Source of the DNA: a virus
DNA length: 64,000 bases
Direction: 5' to 3' (one strand)
Virus record (IMG/VR): IMGVR_UViG_3300018476_000013
Location: 1-64,000 of that record
Shown in pieces: positions 11,998 to 31,847 of the stretch (its first letter is position 1; each line of letters opens with the position of its first letter). A program made the translations under genes and the position numbers. The notes beneath the pieces were generated by a model. The model had not been told where the DNA came from. It did not search any database and saw only the letters and a list, made by a program, of their open reading frames with translations.

Positions 11998-12029
11998 TCC
12001 ATCGAAACACCCCAGACGGAGATTTGATT

Positions 12030-13055
12030 ATGGCTTCGGTACTTAGACAACTCCAGGCAGAGTGGAACGCGTTGGTTCCTGCAGCCCAGGCCCGTGGCAT
12101 CCGCCGCGTTAAGCTCCTGGGTCAGGGGGACATCCTGCGGGCACCCCTGGAGACCATTGCATATCGTCGCGCCAAGCTTGAATGGCTGCGGTCGTTGCTC
12201 GGTGGTTCCAGCCTGGCTGGCCTTGATGGTTTGCAGTTCGGTGTGGAGATCGAGGTGATCCTGCCCCGTGGCATGTCCCGCCGGGAAGCAGCAGCCAAGA
12301 TCACGGCGGCAGGTGTTGAATGCCACGAGGAATTGTATGGTCACACCACCCCCGCTGGTAAGTGGAAAGTGGTTACGGATGGTTCCTTGGGCTATGAACA
12401 AGGTGCAGAATTCGTGTCCCCTCCCCTTCGGGGTGAGGATGGGTTCAGGCAGATGCGGATTGTCTGTGATGCCCTGACGGCCATGAATGCCAGGATCACG
12501 GCCAAGTGTGGTTTCCATGTTCATGTGGATGTCGGCACTGAGCCGGTGGATTTTTTCAAGAACCTGGTTCGTTTGTATGCTTCGGCAGAAACCACGATCG
12601 ACAAGTTCATGCCGGCATCCCGCCGGGGTTCGGTCAACCCGTTCTGCCAGCCCACCCGGATCAACGATGCAGCCCTGACTGCAGCCACCAACATTCAGCA
12701 GGTGGCCACGGCCATTGGCCAGGACAACACCCGGGCACATGCCCGTAGTTCTCGTCGGTATCGCAAACTGAACCTGCAGTGCTTCTTCGTTTATGGCACG
12801 GTGGAATTCCGCCAGCATGGTGGAACATGTGACGCCCAGAAGGCAGCCAACTGGGTCCGCTTGTGCCTGCGCATGGTGCTGACGGCACGGGCCGGAGAAA
12901 AGACTGTGACCACGGTCGATGAATTGCTGGAGACGGTGGGTGCCGATGAAGCTGAGAAGGCATACTTCAGCAGCCGGGTGAACTACTTCAACCGGGCGGA
13001 AAATTTCGATCGGTTGTCGGATGCCAACTTCATTAATCGTCGGAGGCCAGTGTAA
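12030..13055 (+). CDS. Amidoligase family protein (COOH-NH2 ligase fold)
   Basis: 341 residues from the ATG with GGAG ten bases upstream. The pattern is that of the amidoligase family (PF12224), related to glutamine synthetase and gamma-glutamylcysteine ligase: FGVEIEV with E73 and E75 as likely metal ligands, a Gly-rich TDGSLGYEQGAEFVSPPL segment, CGFHVHVDV, and RYRKLNLQ...GTVEFRQHGGT. Such enzymes use ATP to form an amide or isopeptide bond. The next gene, joined by a TAATG overlap, is a gamma-glutamylcyclotransferase-like enzyme; this pairing is known from phages and suggests one makes and the other removes or recycles a gamma-glutamyl-type link. The substrate is unknown. Confidence 0.85.
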   Translation: MASVLRQLQAEWNALVPAAQARGIRRVKLLGQGDILRAPLETIAYRRAKLEWLRSLLGGSSLAGLDGLQFGVEIEVILPRGMSRREAAAKITAAGVECHEELYGHTTPAGKWKVVTDGSLGYEQGAEFVSPPLRGEDGFRQMRIVCDALTAMNARITAKCGFHVHVDVGTEPVDFFKNLVRLYASAETTIDKFMPASRRGSVNPFCQPTRINDAALTAATNIQQVATAIGQDNTRAHARSSRRYRKLNLQCFFVYGTVEFRQHGGTCDAQKAANWVRLCLRMVLTARAGEKTVTTVDELLETVGADEAEKAYFSSRVNYFNRAENFDRLSDANFINRRRPV

Positions 13056-13657
13056 TGGCTAAGATCAAAGTACCACGCCAACGCATTCAGAAGGGTCGGA
13101 CGAAAGTCCGGCCCTACAAGGCCCTGATGTGGTCGTATGGCTCGAACTGCAACATTGAACAGATGAAGCGCCGTTGTCCCAACGCGACACCAGTCGACAA
13201 ATTGCTGATCACGGGCACTTCCCTGGTTTTCCGGGGTGTGGCAGATGTGGTCATCAAGCCAGGTGTTGCAGCACCTGGGGCGTTGTGGAGGATCACTCGT
13301 GAGTGCGAGCAGTCCCTCGATTACTATGAGGGGATCGGCACCGGGCTTTATATGAAAAGGTTCTTCACGATCAACATCGATGGTCGGCCGGAAGAAGTTC
13401 TGTTCTACCAGATGAAAATGTCGGATGGTGTGATGCCGCCAACTGAAGCGTATGTTGAAACCATCGCGCGGGGTTACCACGATTTCGATATCGACCTGGA
13501 CTACCTGAACCGCGCACTAATGGAGTCGTGGAATGACAAGGAGGTTACACCCGTACTGAAGGAGCGCCATGTCAAAAGAGGCAAGCCGAAACTGGCAAGG
13601 GAAGTGAATGAATTTTTCTTGACAGAAGATGACTTACGTGAAGCGGGGGCTGTATGA
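13055..13657 (+). CDS. Gamma-glutamylcyclotransferase-like (AIG2/GGCT) protein
   Basis: 200 residues. The N-terminal substrate loop is YGSN (Y28-N31) and the likely catalytic Glu is E92 in LDYYEGIG, the spacing seen in GGCT. This fold cleaves gamma-glutamyl amines by making 5-oxoproline. The start overlaps the stop of the amidoligase gene, so the two are co-translated and most likely work on the same compound. The C-terminal 50 residues (after WNDKEVTPVLKERHVKRG) are basic and lie outside the usual domain. Confidence 0.85.
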   Translation: MAKIKVPRQRIQKGRTKVRPYKALMWSYGSNCNIEQMKRRCPNATPVDKLLITGTSLVFRGVADVVIKPGVAAPGALWRITRECEQSLDYYEGIGTGLYMKRFFTINIDGRPEEVLFYQMKMSDGVMPPTEAYVETIARGYHDFDIDLDYLNRALMESWNDKEVTPVLKERHVKRGKPKLAREVNEFFLTEDDLREAGAV

Positions 13658-18987: not shown

Positions 18988-19463
18988 TGACCATGCGGTG
19001 GCGTCAAATCCCAGGATCTGACTATGAAGTTTCTGATTACGGTCAGGTTCGAAAAGGAAAAAACCTTTGTCGGGAATATATCCTCCCAACTGGTTATCGA
19101 TCTGTCTGGGTCAAGATCAATGGTCAGTGGGCACAAAAATACGTTCATAGATTGGTGCTCGAAATCTTTGTCGGTCCTTGTCCTCCCGGACAAGAATGCC
19201 GGCATCGGGATGGGGACAATGGGAATAATTATTGGAAGAATTTGAAGTGGGGGACACCAAAGGAAAATGGTCAAGACAAGATCAAACATGGGACAGCCCA
19301 AAATGGAGAACTCGTCCCCCAATCAAAACTGACGTGGGTGCAGGTCCGGTCAATCCGGAAAGCCCAAGGTCCTCGTGGACTCGGTAAAAAATTAGCAGAG
19401 CAACATGGTGTTTCTTCTGCAACGATATCGCTCATTCGAGCAAACAAAGGATGGAGAGAATAA
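18987..19463 (+). CDS. HNH endonuclease, homing type (NUMOD4/HNH_3)
   Basis: 158 residues. The start WRQIPG-x-DYEVSDYGQVRK is the NUMOD4 DNA-binding motif. It is followed by the HNH_3 core (VHRLVLEIFVG, CRHRDGDNGNNYWKNLKWGT) with the His, Asn and His residues in place, and a C-terminal helix-turn-helix (LGKKLAEQHGVSSATISLIR). These are free-standing homing endonucleases that cut phage DNA and spread between genomes. The gene is visibly more A/T-rich than its neighbours, fitting recent acquisition. No intron or intein is seen. Confidence 0.88.
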   Translation: MTMRWRQIPGSDYEVSDYGQVRKGKNLCREYILPTGYRSVWVKINGQWAQKYVHRLVLEIFVGPCPPGQECRHRDGDNGNNYWKNLKWGTPKENGQDKIKHGTAQNGELVPQSKLTWVQVRSIRKAQGPRGLGKKLAEQHGVSSATISLIRANKGWRE

Positions 19464-19464
19464 G

Positions 19465-19839
19465 ATGCGTATGTTTTTTTATGGAACATTGAAAGAAGGT
19501 TTCTGGAACCATAACCGTTTCATCGGTGGTTCAGAATTCCTAGGCATCGGTCGGACAGCTTATCGTTACTTGATGCTCGGGCATAGTGTCCCCATGATCA
19601 TGCCATCCAAGAAAGGCAAGCCGGTCACGGGTGAAGTGTACGAGGTGGATCGTTCCCGCTTGCCGGACCTGGATCGATTGGAAAGCGCCTATGCGCGGGT
19701 CCGTGGTGAGATCCGAATGGATGATGGCAGCACCATCTGGGCCAGCTATTACATCGGCCGAAACAAGCAGTACTGGCTGGGCAATGGTCCCAACCCATGG
19801 GACCACGGCGAAGTCTTCACCTGGAGCATCGACCAATGA
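19465..19839 (+). CDS. Gamma-glutamylcyclotransferase-like protein (second copy)
   Basis: 124 residues from the ATG after GGATGGAGAGAATAAG. FFYGTLKEG (Y6-G12) is the substrate loop and E73 in LDRLESAYAR sits where the catalytic Glu is expected. The fold is the short GGCT/AIG2-like form, clearly different in sequence from the protein at 13055. It lies in a separate unit beside the HNH gene and is followed by a four-base overlap. Its relation to the amidoligase is unknown; it may act on the same kind of gamma-glutamyl compound. Confidence 0.82.
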   Translation: MRMFFYGTLKEGFWNHNRFIGGSEFLGIGRTAYRYLMLGHSVPMIMPSKKGKPVTGEVYEVDRSRLPDLDRLESAYARVRGEIRMDDGSTIWASYYIGRNKQYWLGNGPNPWDHGEVFTWSIDQ

Positions 19840-21772: not shown

Positions 21773-22154
21773 GTTCGCCAGGCGGGAAAAATTAGTAACC
21801 GACGCCATCCCATTCCTAGAAGAAGATGGTCACAAGATCACTTCACGATGGTTATGGGAAGAGGATGATGGAGGAGAAGGCGCGGCCCGGATCTGCCTGC
21901 AGGACATTGACAGGTCTGAGGCCGTGGTTCTTTTCACTGATCCAGTGGGGTCAAAGAATGCAGGTGGCGGTCGTTGGTTTGAAGCTGGATATGCTTACGC
22001 CAACAATCGCCGCCTGTTCATTGTGGGTGAACAAGAGGCCGTGTTCACTTACCTGCCCCTGATCACTGTTTGCCAGGACGTCGACCACTTACGGCGTGAA
22101 CTCGACAACTACAATACCGACCTCATTAAACATCTGGCGCGTCCACTCAGCTGA
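21750..22154 (+). CDS. Nucleoside 2-deoxyribosyltransferase-like protein
   Basis: 134 residues from the ATG behind GAAGAGGTCAGTT. MKLYLAARFARREKL and SEAVVLFTDPV, followed by GGRWFEAGYAYANNRRLFIVG, match the flavodoxin-like NDT family; the Glu in FEAGYA is the expected catalytic residue. The enzyme would swap bases on deoxyribonucleosides or hydrolyse N-glycosidic bonds in nucleotides. The last 66 bases overlap, tail to tail, the end of the dCMP deaminase gene on the other strand. Confidence 0.65.
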   Translation: MKLYLAARFARREKLVTDAIPFLEEDGHKITSRWLWEEDDGGEGAARICLQDIDRSEAVVLFTDPVGSKNAGGGRWFEAGYAYANNRRLFIVGEQEAVFTYLPLITVCQDVDHLRRELDNYNTDLIKHLARPLS

Positions 22155-22517
22155 GGATTTCCAGGGCTCACGGTCAAGCGGGGGTGGAGTGATCACCCGC
22201 TTGATGCCCCTGGAGACAATGGACTTGGCGCATTCATTGCACGGAAACATCGTCACTGCTAATGTGCTGCCCTCTAGATCGAAGTGGGCATTGTCCAAGG
22301 CATTGCGTTCAGCGTGCTGGGTCATGGCGTACTTGGTATTCTTATCCAGCAACCGCTCAGGGCTGTCTTCTATGCCAGGCGGAAATCCATTGTAGCCGAT
22401 GGTGATGTTCCGGCGGTCTTTGCCGACAATGACTGCACCCACTCGCGTGGACGGGTCCTTGCTCCACACAGCTACATGATGGGCCAAAACAAAATATCGT
22501 TGATCCCAGTCGGTCAT
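22089..22517 (-). CDS. Deoxycytidylate deaminase (dCMP deaminase)
   Basis: 142 residues from the ATG at 22517 (MTDWDQRYFVLAHHVAVWSK). The zinc site is QHAERNAL (His and catalytic Glu) and PCNECAKSI (two Cys). RVGAVIVGKD and GYNGFPPGIED are typical of dCMP deaminases. The product turns dCMP into dUMP for thymidylate synthesis. The start codon overlaps the stop of the upstream gene (ATGA). Its presence beside a TS-fold enzyme with dCMP-type residues (31002) suggests an actively tuned dCMP pool. Confidence 0.85.
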   Translation of the reverse strand: MTDWDQRYFVLAHHVAVWSKDPSTRVGAVIVGKDRRNITIGYNGFPPGIEDSPERLLDKNTKYAMTQHAERNALDNAHFDLEGSTLAVTMFPCNECAKSIVSRGIKRVITPPPLDREPWKSSAEWTRQMFNEVGIVVVEFTP

Positions 22518-22690
22518 CAAACAAATCCCTTTTCTTCCGCCAGCCATTCAGGCATGGTGAAGGTCCCATCTTTGTTGTCCTCGACCTGGGACTTGGGCAC
22601 CCATTCCGTTTTGATCCCATCGAAAAGACGATACGCTTTTTCCGTTTCGCCTCGGAGCTCTGCCGCTATGTCGATAAGCTTTTCGGCCAT
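22517..22690 (-). CDS. Small hypothetical protein
   Basis: 57 residues (MAEKLIDIAAELRGETEKAY ... MPEWLAEEKGFV). It overlaps both neighbours by a few bases, so it is coupled to the MazG-like and dCMP deaminase genes. Acidic, with an N-terminal helix. No family is recognised. Confidence 0.6.
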   Translation of the reverse strand: MAEKLIDIAAELRGETEKAYRLFDGIKTEWVPKSQVEDNKDGTFTMPEWLAEEKGFV

Positions 22691-23058
22691 CACGCTACCA
22701 GATCCGAAAGGTCCGGGGCGGTCCAACCCATGGGCTTGACTACATCATGAGCCGATCCCCGCTTCGAGTCCGAACCATCGGCCTTGGCCTTGACTTTCTT
22801 CATGTTGGCTTCGTGAACCCGCTTCCATGCTTCATCAAAGTCAAAGCCGTGCAGGTACGCTGTGCCCAGGGCGACATAGACCAGATCGACCAAAGCATCG
22901 AGCTTGTCCTCTAATGGATACTCACAATATTCGGTCAGCTCCTCGGTCATGAATTTCAATCGGAAGGATGCCAGGTCATCCGGCAATTGCCGAGGGCCGT
23001 CAGTGTAGGCCAATCCGAATTTCTCGTGGAAATCTTTGATGTCAGAATAGAAGCTCAT
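22690..23058 (-). CDS. MazG-like nucleotide pyrophosphohydrolase
   Basis: 122 residues. MTEELTEYCE and DALVDLVYVALGTAYLHGFD carry the E-E-x2-E and D-x3-D metal-binding pattern of the all-alpha MazG/PRA-PH family, followed by a VHEANMKKV helix. Phage members remove particular (d)NTPs or lower ppGpp-type alarmones. It is part of the - strand nucleotide cluster behind the SNF2-like helicase and overlaps its neighbours by 1-4 bases. Confidence 0.8.
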   Translation of the reverse strand: MSFYSDIKDFHEKFGLAYTDGPRQLPDDLASFRLKFMTEELTEYCEYPLEDKLDALVDLVYVALGTAYLHGFDFDEAWKRVHEANMKKVKAKADGSDSKRGSAHDVVKPMGWTAPDLSDLVA

Positions 23059-24918: not shown

Positions 24919-25176
24919 ATGGACGTAGTAAAACTGACGGAAGAACGAGGTCAAGTCCATGGGGACTTTACCGACGTATCGGAGATCGCCCAAAGCTTAA
25001 AGGCCGTTGTCCGTAATGGCAAGTCATTCAATCAATTGACGAGGGTGCAGGTTGAAGGCCTCGACATGATCCTGCACAAGATCGCCCGGATCGTTTCGGG
25101 CAATGCCAACCACCATGATCATTGGGATGACGTCGCCGGGTATGCTCACATCGTATCGAAGAGGATCACCAAGTAA
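24919..25176 (+). CDS. DUF6378-like phage protein
   Basis: 85 residues. ERGQVHGDFTDVSEIAQSLK, QVEGLDMILHKIARIVSGN and HHDHWDDVAGYAHI follow the DUF6378 pattern widespread in phages, in which His, Asp and Glu residues are conserved in an all-helical domain that recalls MazG-like phosphohydrolases. The stop overlaps the next start by one base (TAATG). The activity is unknown; a nucleotide-related role fits the neighbours. Confidence 0.7.
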   Translation: MDVVKLTEERGQVHGDFTDVSEIAQSLKAVVRNGKSFNQLTRVQVEGLDMILHKIARIVSGNANHHDHWDDVAGYAHIVSKRITK

Positions 25177-26543
25177 TGTGTGGCTGGGTAGCACAAGCTG
25201 AAGTTGAAAACGATGAGCACTTCGCCGAAGCCATTCGGAGGATCAGCCATCGCGGCACTCGAGTGACCATCAAGGAAACAAACGGCAGCATCCTTGCTCA
25301 CTCCCGTTTGCCGATTGTCGGGCTGTCAGAAAAATACGACCAGCCCGTCGAGACGGATGACTGGCTGATTGCATTCTCCGGGGAGGTCCTGGACTTCAGG
25401 GAGGAAGACCCCGCTGCCGAATGTGATTTGCCTCTCGTTGTCGAGGGTTGGGAGCGGTATAAGTCCAAAGCCCTCAGGGGCCGGGATGGGTTCTGGAATA
25501 TCATCGCCATCGATAAAACAGATGGAACGCTCCACATTACATGCGATTACCTGGGACAGAAGCCAGCCTATTACCGGCAGGATGTTCTGGCTGCCGCTTC
25601 CGAACCGGATGCATTACTGCCCCTCGGGCCGGTGACATTCGATGAAGTGTACCTGGCAGCGGTGATCAAGTGGGGATACTGCCCGGAGATCGAGCGGACC
25701 CCTTACAATGAGATCAAGAAAGTCCGGCCGGGGGAGCATATCCAACTGGATGATCTTGGGACATTCGGCCAAGGACAAATCGTCGATCAATTGGTGCCCC
25801 GGCCAGGTGACCTGCGGAAGGAAATAGAACTGGCCGTCCGCCGGCGGGTAATGGCATCAGATGTGCCGGTGGCTTGCTTGTTGTCGGGTGGATTGGACAG
25901 CTCAATCGTTTATACCTTGGCCTCGTGCTATGGCCAGGTCAAGCCATATTACGTCGACCTCGGGGACAATGACATAGAAGAACGAATGGCCGTTGGTGCT
26001 GTCGCCGGCAAGGCCAAGGTCATGGAGGTCAACGGTTCTTCACTTGACATCCCGGTGATGGAGCAACTGGACTACATGCAAGAGCCCATCGACCTGGGTT
26101 CGTTGGTGCCACAGATCGCTTTGGCCCGTGTCATCCCTGAGAATGTTTGCCTGACGGGCGATGGTGCTGATGAAGTGTTCGGGGGTTATGGCAGGGCATA
26201 TCGTTATGACAGCCAGGGCTCGGATGTATTCCATGAATTGCCGGCGTGGCATCTGCCGCGGCTTGATCGGGTGATGATGAGGCACCTGATTGAAGTACGC
26301 AGCCCATTCTTGTCCCGCCGGGTGGTCGAGATTGGATTGTCCTTGCCCAGGGAATTGAGGACCGGCAAGCGGATACTCCGGGAAATCTTCCGGGACATCC
26401 TGCCTAAGAGCATTGCCGATCGGGCCAAGAAGCCATTGCGGATGCTGGGCATCAATGAAGCCCATCGCATTCATATGGTCAACGAGTTCAAACGGCGTCA
26501 TTACATCCGCAATGAAATGGATGTCGAGGAGATGAGTCGATGA
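25176..26543 (+). CDS. Asparagine synthetase-like glutamine amidotransferase
   Basis: 455 residues. N-terminal class II glutaminase: Cys2 (MCGW), RISHRG, LAHSRLPI and FSGEVLDF, where the usual oxyanion-hole NGE reads SGE. C-terminal synthetase: ATP-pyrophosphatase loop SGGLDSS (237-243) and LTGDGADEVFGGY, then EVRSPFLSRRVVE. Cellular AsnB is about 550 residues; this is shorter at the C-terminal end. It should transfer ammonia from Gln to an adenylated carboxylate, normally Asp. It overlaps both neighbours (TAATG, ATGA) and is therefore coupled to the C5-methyltransferase-like gene, which suggests that the real acceptor could be a carboxylated base. That is inference. Confidence 0.85.
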   Translation: MCGWVAQAEVENDEHFAEAIRRISHRGTRVTIKETNGSILAHSRLPIVGLSEKYDQPVETDDWLIAFSGEVLDFREEDPAAECDLPLVVEGWERYKSKALRGRDGFWNIIAIDKTDGTLHITCDYLGQKPAYYRQDVLAAASEPDALLPLGPVTFDEVYLAAVIKWGYCPEIERTPYNEIKKVRPGEHIQLDDLGTFGQGQIVDQLVPRPGDLRKEIELAVRRRVMASDVPVACLLSGGLDSSIVYTLASCYGQVKPYYVDLGDNDIEERMAVGAVAGKAKVMEVNGSSLDIPVMEQLDYMQEPIDLGSLVPQIALARVIPENVCLTGDGADEVFGGYGRAYRYDSQGSDVFHELPAWHLPRLDRVMMRHLIEVRSPFLSRRVVEIGLSLPRELRTGKRILREIFRDILPKSIADRAKKPLRMLGINEAHRIHMVNEFKRRHYIRNEMDVEEMSR

Positions 26544-28045
26544 AGAAGCCAAAAGAAAAGCAATTGATTGCCGTGGGGATCACCTGCGGCATTGGTTCAT
26601 TGCTCGTGGGCGCCAAGGCCGCAGGGTTCAAGGTCGCGGGCAATGTGGAGTGGCGGAAATATTACCACCACCAGGACGAAACCGAGCGCAACACTTTCAC
26701 TGAGAATTTCCCTGGGGCGATCTTCCCCAACTCAGTGGAGCAGATGACGGAAGAAGAGTTCAGGAAGTTCAGCAACCCGGACATCGCTTTAGGCCATCCA
26801 GAATGCGGCAACTTCAGCGTGCTGAATGGCGCCCACAAGGACCGGCTCAACATGATGCTGGACCCTGCTGACATCCCGCTCTTCGTCGATCTGGTAGCCA
26901 AGCTGAAGCCCAGGTTCTTCGTGATGGACGACCTGCCCAAGTCCTTCATGGCGTACCCGATGGAAAAGTACGCAGAGAAATTGCCGGACTATGACCTGTA
27001 TCCGGAATGGATCAGCAACTGGGGCTACGGCAACGTCCAGAAGAACCGGAACCGGATGTTCATGCTGGGCGCGCTGCGGGCCGAGCGGTGGGCTTTCCGG
27101 CCGGGTGAGCAGGAACATACCCTGACCGTGGAAGATGTCATCGGTGACCTTGCTAAGCCATCTGTGAGGGGCAATATGCCCAATCATGACCCCCACGACC
27201 TGAAGTCCGTTTGTGCCAAGGCCCTGAACCTGGGTGAGTGGCGGAAACGGAATACCTGGGGCGAGGTCCAGAAGTACTTCGCCGACAAGGGCGGCGGGTT
27301 CACGCTGGAATATACCAGGGATGACGGCAAGCGGCTGAAGAGGATCGGCTTCCTCAAGGGCCATTGGGACGGGCCATCGCATGTGCTGACTGGTGGCAAT
27401 GCCATCCTGCACCACAAGCGCAATGAACCCTACACCATCCGGGAGCGGGCGCGCATTCAGGGCTTCCCTGATGACTTCGTCTTCTATGGTGCCAAGCTGA
27501 ACCCCAAGGGGGAATGGGAGCATGATGGTGACGGCACCATGGTCAAGCAGACCGGCAAGGCCATGCCAGTGCAGTTTGCTGAATATGTGTCCAAGCAGAT
27601 TGCTGCATTCATCAACAAGGAAGAGTTCGAGTCCAGTGGCCGCCGGGTGATCCCGCCCAATGAATACGTCGACCAGGCCAAGCAATGGTACTGCCAGAAT
27701 GTCGGCTATTCAGTGCAGAAGAAAGCATGTGGGGAATGCTGGCTCTTCAACAAATGCAGCATCAGGTCCGAGAAATACCAAATCGGTCCGCGCGCGCATA
27801 CCACAAAATCCGTTGTGGAAGAATGCCCCACAAATCAGCGAATTACGGGGGCTGTTTTAGGGGGAAATACTAGGACGCGTCAAGGGGGGCTCATGCCCTC
27901 TGCCAAAAAGCCTAATGAAATCAAGGTCCGTGAGGCCAAGAACACGGGAGGGACCAATAAAAAAACGCCCTCCCGAGATCCCCGAACTGGCCAGTCCAGG
28001 AAAACTGTCCATCAACCCATCGAAACCACCATTGAAGAGTTTTGA
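26540..28045 (+). CDS. C5-cytosine methyltransferase-like protein with unusual motifs IV and VI
   Basis: 501 residues. Motif I region ITCGIGSLLVG, motif IV GHPECGNFS with C89, motif VI FVMDDLP (130-131 DD where ENV is normal), motif VIII QKNRNR, motif IX/X RERARIQGFPDDF and KQTGKAMPVQFAEYV. Motif IV has one residue more than the classical PCQ, and the Glu of motif VI is Asp. The C-terminal 120 residues are extra and carry four Cys (CQN, CGEC, C) that could bind metal. It may methylate cytosine, or act on another C5 substituent. The start overlaps the asparagine-synthetase-like gene. Confidence 0.8.
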   Translation: MKKPKEKQLIAVGITCGIGSLLVGAKAAGFKVAGNVEWRKYYHHQDETERNTFTENFPGAIFPNSVEQMTEEEFRKFSNPDIALGHPECGNFSVLNGAHKDRLNMMLDPADIPLFVDLVAKLKPRFFVMDDLPKSFMAYPMEKYAEKLPDYDLYPEWISNWGYGNVQKNRNRMFMLGALRAERWAFRPGEQEHTLTVEDVIGDLAKPSVRGNMPNHDPHDLKSVCAKALNLGEWRKRNTWGEVQKYFADKGGGFTLEYTRDDGKRLKRIGFLKGHWDGPSHVLTGGNAILHHKRNEPYTIRERARIQGFPDDFVFYGAKLNPKGEWEHDGDGTMVKQTGKAMPVQFAEYVSKQIAAFINKEEFESSGRRVIPPNEYVDQAKQWYCQNVGYSVQKKACGECWLFNKCSIRSEKYQIGPRAHTTKSVVEECPTNQRITGAVLGGNTRTRQGGLMPSAKKPNEIKVREAKNTGGTNKKTPSRDPRTGQSRKTVHQPIETTIEEF

Positions 28046-28066: not shown

Positions 28067-28963
28067 ATGCACGGCGAGAAAGTTCACATTGTCAAGGGGC
28101 AGACCCCCGCTGATTATCACTGCACCTGCAAATTCTGCCAGAAGGCCCTGGGGGAATTGTTGAAGCCTGATGGGACATATTACAGCCGGCTGGAGCGCCG
28201 GAAGTATTATGACCCCGCTGAGTCGGGCAAGAAGGAAGGGGCGCACATTGCCAAGACCCCGCTCCACATTGCCCGCTGGGCCATCCAGAACTATTCTAAA
28301 CCAGGTGACTGGGTTCTTGATCCGACCATCGGCGCAGGCACCACGGCCGTCGAGGCCATCACCCAAGGCCGCAACGTGGCCGGAATGGAAATCGAATTCG
28401 GCGAAGTGCTGAAGAAGAATATCCAGGCCGCACTGGTACTGGCCAATGGGTCGAAGCCCAAAGCCAAGATCGGCCATGGCGATGCCCGCAACATCAGTGC
28501 CTTCCTCGACAAGGCCAAAGTTGAGAAGGTGCAGTTGGTCATCAACAATCCACCCTACTCAGGCGATGCCTCGATGCCGTCGCCCTCCAAGGAAGGACGG
28601 GGTGCCGCTTACCGGGACAAGGAAACCTATTTTTTCTACGACAAGTCCCTGCCGAACTTGGCGTTCCTGAAAGAGGGCCAAGAGTATTGGGATGAGATGA
28701 CAAAAATCTACAAGGCATGTGCTGACCGACTTGAAGTCGGCGGTCACTTCGTCATCGGCATTAAGGACATGAGCAAGAAGAAGCAGCCTTATCTTCTGCA
28801 CAAGATGTTCTGTGAAATCCTGGAAGAGATGAAGTTAAAATTTGTTGGCACGGCGTTCCTGAACCATTACCCTCGAACCCTTCACTTGAACACGTGCGAG
28901 AAGTTTTATGGCTTCAAGCCGCCGTTCTTCCAGACCATCAACGTATTTAAGAAAGCAAAGTAA
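28067..28963 (+). CDS. N6-adenine or N4-cytosine DNA methyltransferase
   Basis: 298 residues. HIAKTPLHIARWAIQNYS, motif I VLDPTIGAGTTAVEA and motif IV VINNPPYSGD give an amino-methyltransferase with SAM-binding motif before the catalytic NPPY motif. A C-x-C-x2-C near residue 24 (HCTCKFC) is a small zinc site in front of the domain. The ATG follows AAAAGGAGTTCTGAAA. It could protect phage DNA from restriction or mark it. No matching restriction enzyme is seen, so it is an orphan enzyme. Confidence 0.88.
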   Translation: MHGEKVHIVKGQTPADYHCTCKFCQKALGELLKPDGTYYSRLERRKYYDPAESGKKEGAHIAKTPLHIARWAIQNYSKPGDWVLDPTIGAGTTAVEAITQGRNVAGMEIEFGEVLKKNIQAALVLANGSKPKAKIGHGDARNISAFLDKAKVEKVQLVINNPPYSGDASMPSPSKEGRGAAYRDKETYFFYDKSLPNLAFLKEGQEYWDEMTKIYKACADRLEVGGHFVIGIKDMSKKKQPYLLHKMFCEILEEMKLKFVGTAFLNHYPRTLHLNTCEKFYGFKPPFFQTINVFKKAK

Positions 28964-30112: not shown

Positions 30113-30820
30113 ATGACCCAACCACTTTTTGAATTCTGTCCGACGATAGTCTGCGGGCAAACGAAAAGCGGAGTCAGCATTACTTGCGGCCACTGTTCGA
30201 AGGGAGAAGTCATCGCCGTCAATAAGATGAGACGGCATGGCGAAGACGATTCGGGGATCATTGAACGAATGCTCGCCGACAAATTCGAACGGATAGGCTG
30301 GAAGGTTGGTAATGCCCCCAAGCATCACCGCTGCCCCGCTTGCTTCACAGCTATCAAATCAGCAGCCATCAGGAAAAAGGAAGAGCGCATGTCCGAGAAA
30401 GTAGTGCCCATCACTGCCACCCCCAATGCTCCAGCTAATGCGCCAGTCAATGGGACACCCCAACCACCGAGACCCATGACCCGTGATGAGCGTTACCTGA
30501 TCTTCAAAAAAATCGATGAGCACTATATCGGGGAGACCGTCGGCTACCATGAGAGTTGGAACGACGACAAGATCGCCAAGGACCTGGGCGTGCCCGTGGC
30601 GTTCGTGGCGACCGTGCGTGAAGAAAGCTTTGGCCCCAACATCGACGAACACTCGGTCAAGGTAATGACCGACGCCAAGACCTTGCTGGCTGACATCCGG
30701 CAAGCGGCCTCTGACATGGGGCCGATGATCAAACAGATTGAACCGTTCATGAAACACCTGCATGAATTGGTCGCCCGAAGTTCATCCATTGAAAAGAGCC
30801 TGAAGGAGTTGCAGCGATGA
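30113..30820 (+). CDS. Hypothetical protein with zinc-ribbon-like Cys pairs
   Basis: 235 residues. Cys at about 9, 14, 25, 28 and CPAC near residue 72 suggest a zinc-bound N-terminal domain (about 1-80), followed by a Pro/Ala-rich linker (PNAPANAPVNGTPQPPRP) and a helical C-terminal domain (about 125-235) with DRYLIFKKIDEHYIG-like and PFMKHLHELVARSS segments. It may bind DNA or RNA. The next gene starts four bases before its end. No family is recognised. Confidence 0.6.
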   Translation: MTQPLFEFCPTIVCGQTKSGVSITCGHCSKGEVIAVNKMRRHGEDDSGIIERMLADKFERIGWKVGNAPKHHRCPACFTAIKSAAIRKKEERMSEKVVPITATPNAPANAPVNGTPQPPRPMTRDERYLIFKKIDEHYIGETVGYHESWNDDKIAKDLGVPVAFVATVREESFGPNIDEHSVKVMTDAKTLLADIRQAASDMGPMIKQIEPFMKHLHELVARSSSIEKSLKELQR

Positions 30821-31005
30821 CTGGTTACCCAAAAGGAGAATTCCCTGAGATCGTTTACCAAGGGGGTCAGACAGGTTGGTGTCTGACATCCCATAAGAGT
30901 TATGAGTTCGAAGACCACATGGAAGCAGTTATTGCTTTGTTGCCGGAAGGGCCGGTTAAAGAAAACCAGATCGAGTGGTTCAAAGAACTCAAGAGGCGGA
31001 AATGA
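30817..31005 (+). CDS. Small hypothetical protein
   Basis: 62 residues (MTGYPKGEFPEIVYQGGQTG ... EWFKELKRRK). It overlaps both neighbours by four bases. Acidic in the middle, basic at the end. No family is recognised. Confidence 0.6.
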   Translation: MTGYPKGEFPEIVYQGGQTGWCLTSHKSYEFEDHMEAVIALLPEGPVKENQIEWFKELKRRK

Positions 31006-31847
31006 AATACCTCGGCGAATATCTGTCTTTCAAACCTGTTGCCAGATTGATCGAAGGCCAGATCAAGGAAGCACCCCCTGTCCGCACAGAACGCTGGCAG
31101 GGGGTGGCGCATAACCAGGACACGCGTGAACTGCTGAACGCCTCATTCATGGTGGATCTGCAGTGCATCGAGGATCTGGATCATTGGCGGAAGGACATCA
31201 AGACCAATCTGCCTTGGGCTGATGACCACTTCATGGAGCGGATCGGCGGCCAGCCATTGAACCCTGGTGTTCAGTGGGCGAACTGGCCGTGGTCCCGGTC
31301 AGCAGCCAACTTCAAGCAGGACAGGTTCAATCATACCTACATGGAAAGGCTCTGGCCCAAGTTTGCCCGCCGGACTGCTGATGGCCGGTTGCCGATGGGC
31401 AAGGGTGCAAGGAAGTATCCGCAGACAGACAACCGGCCAAAGCTGGGGGTCGGCTGGGCTTATGGGGACTTGCTGGATCTGGTGGAGTTGCTGGTCAAAG
31501 AACCCCACACTCGCCAGGGATGGATACCGCTGTTCTTCCCTGAAGATACGGGCATCGGGGATGGCGGCCGCAAGCCCTGCACCCTTGGCTATCAGATCAT
31601 TGTCCGTGATGGCAGAGCCCATATCTATTATCCCCTGCGGTCATGTGACTTCATCCGGCACTGGGCAGATGATTGCTACTTGGCTGTGCGCCTGTTGCTG
31701 TGGGTCATCGATGAATGCCGCAAGAGGTCGGAGTTCTGGAAGAACATCGCACCAGGCACTTATTCGATGCACATGACTTCTCTTCACATCTTTGAAACGG
31801 ATCTTAAGACCAATGAGCAAGCCGAGGCCACCGCAACAAGTATTTGA
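31002..31847 (+). CDS. Thymidylate synthase-fold protein, probable dCMP hydroxymethylase type
   Basis: 281 residues from the ATG in the GGAAATGAAAT overlap. KPCTLGYQ holds the nucleophile C193. Twenty residues later comes R213-S214-C215-D216, matching E. coli ThyA C146 and R166-S-x-D169; eight residues later D224 stands where ThyA has N177. Asp there is the residue that makes T4 gp42 use dCMP instead of dUMP. The HIY motif reads HIF (262-264). The protein would add a C1 unit to C5 of dCMP, giving hydroxymethyl-dCMP. The start overlaps the previous gene, and its position behind the methyltransferase cluster suggests base modification. Confidence 0.72.
   Translation: MKYLGEYLSFKPVARLIEGQIKEAPPVRTERWQGVAHNQDTRELLNASFMVDLQCIEDLDHWRKDIKTNLPWADDHFMERIGGQPLNPGVQWANWPWSRSAANFKQDRFNHTYMERLWPKFARRTADGRLPMGKGARKYPQTDNRPKLGVGWAYGDLLDLVELLVKEPHTRQGWIPLFFPEDTGIGDGGRKPCTLGYQIIVRDGRAHIYYPLRSCDFIRHWADDCYLAVRLLLWVIDECRKRSEFWKNIAPGTYSMHMTSLHIFETDLKTNEQAEATATSI

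Follow-up and report, generated by a model that had tools for sequence, protein, structure and literature searches.

A phage protein family of the thymidylate synthase superfamily, with residues pointing to cytosine, occurs in two alternative gene contexts

The open reading frame at 31002-31847 of a 78.3-kb virus contig, whose first 64,000 bases were analyzed here (the window), raises the question of whether the encoded protein is a thymidylate synthase (TS) or an enzyme that modifies cytosine, and with which product. The frame (30975/31002-31847, plus strand) was judged to be real, its protein-coding part being 31002-31844. The start at the ATG 31002, from which residue numbers are counted, is backed by an AGAGG 6 bases 5' of it, by the 4 bases that the ORF before it (30817-31005) shares with the frame, and by the lack of an earlier ATG in the frame of the relative L002. 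The earlier note had taken the product for a TS-fold enzyme, and membership of the 281-amino-acid protein in the TS superfamily was confirmed. It matched PHROG 160 ('thymidylate synthase') at E=1.4e-22, and a profile of its family retrieved from the Protein Data Bank (PDB) the CMP hydroxymethylase MilA (1.2e-8, the nearest entry in sequence), TS N229D (1.8e-8), AfhB (2.7e-8), and the T4 dCMP hydroxymethylase (1.3e-5); judged by these comparisons, its TS homology is far above chance. The family is beyond the reach of the Pfam model PF00303, which gave no match to this protein in the record even at E=10, whereas PHROG 160 and the PDB profiles do reach it. The AlphaFold model, built from only 8 sequences, was weak (pLDDT 66, with the C193 loop and residues 82-152 mostly below 50). 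A Foldseek search with this low-confidence model returned AfhB first (E 2e-9), then MilA and T4 gp42, ahead of TS, the top matches thus being dCMP/CMP enzymes.

The residues of the active site were then compared with those of characterized enzymes. The spacings C193-R213 (20 residues) and D216-D224 (8), which the earlier note had equated with those of E. coli ThyA without gaps, were reproduced on recomputation from the ATG. Together with R213-D216 (3), they form a gap-free block identical in spacing to C146-R166-D169-N177 of ThyA and also to C148-R168-D171-D179 of T4 gp42. Also borne out were two further readings: Asp at the ThyA N177 position, as in the T4 dCMP hydroxymethylase, and replacement of HIY by HIF (H262-I263-F264), a motif shared with RB69 ORF048c but not with T4. 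Among 121 distinct relatives from viral contigs and cultured phages, C193, R213, Y113, H262, and D224 are invariant, and the D216 position (ThyA D169) is Asp in 120. Asp at position 177 is a published determinant of cytosine (PMC5175136, PMC6400193, PMC8670742), and positions 177 and 147 best separate the TS sequences of cytosine-modified contigs from those of unmodified ones (PMC8670742). Position 147 is Thr/Ser instead of His in the family, and Thr in T4 gp42 and RB69 ORF048c. The relatives adjoin genes for dCMP deaminase and NTP-pyrophosphohydrolase, the company that TS genes keep on cytosine-modified contigs (PMC8670742). Because C193, R213, and D224 never vary in the 121 relatives, a cytosine nucleotide as the substrate is well supported, judging from the homologs.

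A thymidylate synthase making dTMP can be ruled out. The protein has Asp in place of Asn177 and ends shortly after HIF, without the C-terminal tail of TS. Several relatives carry ThyA or ThyX genes beside the TS-like gene, and therefore the latter is not their thymidylate synthase. In phage Triscuit (L019:7932-9637), the TS-like gene directly adjoins a canonical ThyA with Asn177.

The earlier note had also suggested that the enzyme may make hydroxymethyl-dCMP. The cytosine part of this suggestion agrees with Asp177, Thr/Ser147, and the gene company, and modified cytosine in the phage DNA is plausible; the hydroxymethyl part runs against two other positions. In T4 gp42, the second half-reaction depends on D145, which precedes the catalytic Cys by three residues (C-3), and on S94, which precedes Y96 by two; the D145N variant is inactive (PMC6400193). 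When this signature was sought in the 121 relatives, none had Asp/Glu at C-3 and none had Ser/Thr two before the Tyr; the Ser94 position is His in 113 and Tyr in 8, and C-3 (R190) is Arg throughout. The position of ThyA R127, one of the two phosphate-binding arginines of TS, is Gln in all relatives but one. Nor does hydroxymethyl follow from Asp177, because T4 gp42 (5hmC) shares this residue with RB69 ORF048c (5-hydroxy-dCMP) and with the TS of DLP4, which is related to the 5mC phage Xp12 (PMC9206674) and stands in for it here. Hydroxymethyl-dCMP is therefore a possible product, unsupported by the residues that define hydroxymethylases; as a single guess, 5-hydroxymethyl-dCMP is still the likeliest, at somewhat less than an even chance.

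That the protein is simply a dCMP hydroxymethylase like T4 gp42, with 5hmC as the end product and unrelated neighboring genes, would account for Asp at 177 and 169, Thr/Ser at 147, the missing TS tail and dihydrofolate reductase (DHFR), and an NTP-pyrophosphohydrolase and dCMP deaminase as in T4. Given Arg at C-3, His/Tyr at the Ser94 position, the inactivity of T4 D145N (PMC6400193), and a cassette too constant for unrelated neighbors (see below), we consider this rather unlikely. A second alternative is a flavin-type dCMP 5-hydroxylase, which would yield 5-hydroxy-dCMP without folate. RB69 ORF048c has been assigned to the 5-hydroxy-dCMP synthase group (PMC13390438), and its sequence agrees with the AfhB structures 9iqc/9iqu over the printed alignment; statements on this enzyme type rest on that paper and on PDB titles. 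The TS-like protein shares with it the HxF motif, a short C-terminus, and a D-x-YL-x3-LL helix, and AfhB led the Foldseek matches. However, RB69 ORF048c has Asn at position 169 and Glu at C-3, where the TS-like family has Asp (D216), like the folate-type enzymes, and Arg, and no glycosyltransferase was recognized among the scanned genes of the window, which makes a flavin-type enzyme improbable. Finally, methylation to 5-methyl-dCMP, as presumed for Xp12, draws on the Asp at 177 of the DLP4 TS. DLP4, however, keeps the C-terminal tail and HLY and has an adjoining DHFR gene, whereas the TS-like protein lacks the tail and no DHFR was found in the window's record. Both absences argue against reductive methylation, and a dCMP methylase appears highly improbable.

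To place the enzyme in its genetic context, we examined the surrounding genes (Table 1). The cassette genes all lie on one strand, and with few exceptions they follow each other as Asn-synthetase-like, C5-MTase-like, TS-like. The constancy of this cassette was assessed in a new search that used only the C5-MTase-like profile and fetched 28 loci: 26 contained the TS-like gene, 27 the Asn-synthetase-like gene, and none gene X (described below). In the two loci without the TS-like gene, the contig ends a short way past the MTase gene. Among all 42 fetched locus records with an MTase-like gene, some of which repeat one contig, the counts were 40, 40, and 0, respectively. This constancy suggests that the TS-like, MTase-like, and Asn-synthetase-like proteins likely serve one pathway. 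The Asn-synthetase-like proteins keep Cys2 and the ATP-PPase residues in 40/40.

Table 1. Features of the window, and examples of gene X in other loci
Feature	Position	Strand or place	Evidence
TS-like cytosine-type enzyme (putative), 281 aa	31002..31847	(+)	Asp at N177 position; TS homology
Codon of R190, C-3, at the position of the water-activating D145 of T4 gp42	31569..31571	(+)	Arg in 121/121; T4 role, PMC6400193
Codon of catalytic Cys C193 (= ThyA C146)	31578..31580	(+)	invariant, 121/121
Codon of D224 (ThyA N177, T4 D179), base selection	31671..31673	(+)	Asp in 121/121
Codon of F264 (ThyA Y209) within HIF	31791..31793	(+)	Phe in 116/121; Phe also in RB69 ORF048c
Asn-synthetase-like protein, N-terminal class II glutamine amidotransferase (Cys2), cassette gene 1	25176..26543	(+)	Pfam Asn_synthase 4e-38, GATase_6 5e-10
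C5-cytosine-MTase-like protein, altered motifs (HPECG, DDL, TGKA), cassette gene 2	26540..28045	(+)	Pfam DNA_methylase 3.5e-19; motif table
Codon of C89, catalytic Cys of the C5-MTase-like protein	26804..26806	(+)	30/30
Codon of K340, HhaI N304 / SpCmoX R350 position	27557..27559	(+)	Lys in 27/28; aligned on HaeIII GNAV
Amino-MTase-like (NPPY) protein	28067..28963	(+)	15/25 cassette loci, 0/81 gene-X loci
dCMP deaminase	22089..22547	(-)	Pfam 9.7e-22
MazG/PRA-PH-type nucleotide pyrophosphohydrolase	22690..23058	(-)	Pfam PRA-PH 4e-11; PHROG 671 1.4e-24
Gene X, examples	L014:6637-7446, L017:7204-7992, L016:5090-5983, L045:3343-4116	5' of TS-like gene	TS fold (model); invariant Cys/Arg/Asp

Several features of the neighborhood were observed besides. 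In L028 (7287-9596), the amino-MTase-like and C5-MTase-like proteins form a fusion, and the C5-MTase-like gene is present in two tandem copies in L147 (7866-10642) and L148 (4389-6826). In L125 (6892-9051), an intein-like insert follows right behind the catalytic Cys (HPEC...VMKNCGNFS). The C-terminus of the C5-MTase-like protein holds four invariant cysteines, C385, C397, C400, and C406 (C-x11-C-x2-C-x5-C), perhaps a metal or Fe-S site. Elsewhere in the window, an amidoligase gene is followed by a gamma-glutamyl cyclotransferase gene (12024-13657), a pair with a similar counterpart in L027, and a second cyclotransferase gene lies away from it (19405-19839). A 75,335-base IMG/VR cassette contig (L098/L027) recurs in a MAG of the Myxococcaceae, which hints weakly at the host.

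In comparison with HhaI, the C5-MTase-like proteins keep Cys81, Q161, R163, and R165 in 30/30 and E40 as Glu in 29 (Asp in 1). P80 is replaced by Glu/Asp in 29/30, Q82 by Gly, E119 by Asp in 29/30, and F18 by Thr in 28/30. The position of HhaI N304 corresponds to Arg350 of SpCmoX, the residue that binds the Cx-SAM carboxylate, and Cx-SAM is also used by the engineered variant MpeI N374K (PMC12783734). The protein at 26540-28045 could be a naturally occurring equivalent of CmoX with Lys, or else an MTase recruited to another task. The C5-MTase-like and Asn-synthetase-like proteins might accordingly be a Lys variant of CmoX-CmoY, performing carboxymethylation and then amidation independently of the TS-like enzyme, as the near-invariant Lys and a reported CmoY cluster with a glutaminase domain (PMC12783734) would suggest. 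However, the window's protein has HPEC in place of SPPC and Lys340 in place of Arg350, and searches for CmoA in the window's record, 19 further cassette records, and two MAGs with contigs of the family, one of them a cassette contig, gave no match. This explanation also leaves the near-constant presence of the TS-like gene unexplained, and we regard it as less probable than the pathway proposed below, though the strongest of the alternatives. Two C5-MTase-like proteins without a nearby Asn-synthetase-like gene differ at the N304 position, with Asn, seen in no other member, in L115 and Lys in L155.

The window and its nearest relatives have the Asn-synthetase-like and C5-MTase-like genes upstream of the TS-like gene and lack gene X. 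Most relatives outside the cassette group have this different partner, gene X, just upstream of the TS-like gene; in 61/75, it overlaps the TS-like frame or ends no more than 250 bases away from it. Cultured relatives mostly show the series dNMP kinase, NTP-pyrophosphohydrolase, gene X, TS-like, dCMP deaminase, and DNA polymerase I, although in some of them individual genes are absent or lie elsewhere. The annotation of gene X is 'hypothetical', and PHROGs lists it as 'unknown' (34294, 13667). Its Cys, Arg, and Asp are each invariant (61/61), and the Asp follows E165 by 8 residues, like D169-N177 of TS. Similarity of its sequence to TS was weak (hhalign P 0.013-0.017, with a score above 100/100 column shuffles), and its profile had no match in the PDB. 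The AlphaFold model, in contrast, was of high confidence (pLDDT 91, pTM 0.88); AfhB was its first match, and all 50 PDB matches listed were TS-superfamily proteins. As the sequence evidence alone is weak, it is the predicted structure that settles gene X as a TS-fold protein, and in most TS-like members two TS-fold genes therefore stand together. In L092 (8334-9979), two consecutive copies of gene X precede one TS-like gene.

Gene X and the MTase-like gene occurred together in none of the fetched loci; gene X was not found in the 20 whole cassette records searched, nor in the window's record at E<=10. The gene directly upstream of the TS-like gene in the window (30113-30820) was considered as a candidate for gene X and ruled out, as the two are not alike. 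A quick tree of the TS-like proteins, in which some branches are long, calls for about 7 switches of the MTase label; of these, at least 4 fall on branches with support, and the exact counts depend on the tree. The exclusion of X and MTase is therefore not one event. The larger finding is a TS-like family with two contexts. As gene X, like the MTase-like gene, encodes a cytosine-type fold with a Cys nucleophile and the two are mutually exclusive, they may perform analogous second steps.

Based on these results, we favor, with somewhat more confidence than doubt, the view that the TS-like protein is a dCMP C5-modifying enzyme at the entry to a multi-step cytosine modification carried out with its cassette partners. 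We infer the substrate, the cofactor, and the order of the steps as follows. The substrate would be a cytosine mononucleotide, most likely dCMP; C193 would attack C6, D224 would read the cytosine edge, and a one-carbon unit would be placed on C5. Methylene-THF is the most likely donor, given that D216, the Asp that binds the pterin, is retained. For the phage of the window, this would be the first step. The base would then be elaborated, probably after incorporation, by the C5-MTase-like protein, which retains its catalytic Cys and has Lys at the cofactor/substituent site, and by the Asn-synthetase-like protein, which depends on glutamine. The dCMP deaminase and the MazG-type hydrolase would shape the dCTP pool. 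In most relatives, the TS-fold partner X would replace the C5-MTase/Asn-synthetase pair.

Several points count against this pathway. No member has the hydroxymethylase signature, and ThyA R127 is replaced by Gln in all but one. Furthermore, an MTase-like protein directed at C5 would be idle if every C5 were substituted. It is paradoxical for a DNA enzyme and a dCMP enzyme that both target C5 to stand side by side, unless the first works on what the TS-like enzyme makes or substitution is partial. C5-MTases are able to add nucleophiles to 5hmC in vitro, which would fit an MTase-like protein acting on the TS-like product. In a more specific version of the pathway, a new phage route to hypermodified cytosine that we consider unlikely, the TS-like enzyme would set a C5 handle on dCMP, a repurposed C5-MTase-fold protein with Lys for a carboxylate would exchange or extend this handle in DNA, the Asn-synthetase-like protein would amidate it, X would replace the MTase-like step in relatives, and R190 would point to an anionic nucleophile rather than water.

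Asp177 is used for calling dCMP hydroxymethylases from sequence; in the TS-like family, such a call gives the base and not the product. A large set of phages, including the isolates Serbin, PMBT14, Muddy, and Zuko, carries this gene under the annotation 'thymidylate synthase', while its key residues indicate cytosine. The alternation of the TS-fold gene X with the C5-MTase-like/Asn-synthetase-like pair points to an uncharacterized cytosine modification, and cytosine modification is directly testable on phages already in culture.

Among known systems, T4 gp42 resembles the TS-like protein in having the TS fold, a C-R-D-D block that aligns without gaps, Asp for cytosine, and Thr next to the Cys on its C-terminal side, and in lacking the TS C-terminal tail; it differs in gene company and at four positions, where Asp at C-3, Ser94, the Tyr of HxY, and R124 of T4 correspond to Arg, His, Phe, and Gln. 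AfhB and RB69 ORF048c are nearest by Foldseek and share Asp for cytosine, HxF, and a short C-terminus, but they have Asn at 169, Glu at C-3, both arginines of the RR pair, and other gene company. MilA, the closest PDB sequence, also has Asp for cytosine; unlike the TS-like protein, it carries an acid at C-3 and HIY, prefers ribonucleotides, and belongs to an antibiotic pathway rather than a phage. The CmoX-CmoY carboxymethylcytosine pathway of Synechococcus phage S-B43 resembles the cassette in having a C5-MTase homolog with a basic residue at the N304 position beside an Asn-synthetase homolog, whereas the cassette differs by Lys for Arg, HPEC for SPPC, the lack of CmoA, and the almost constant presence of a TS-like gene close by.
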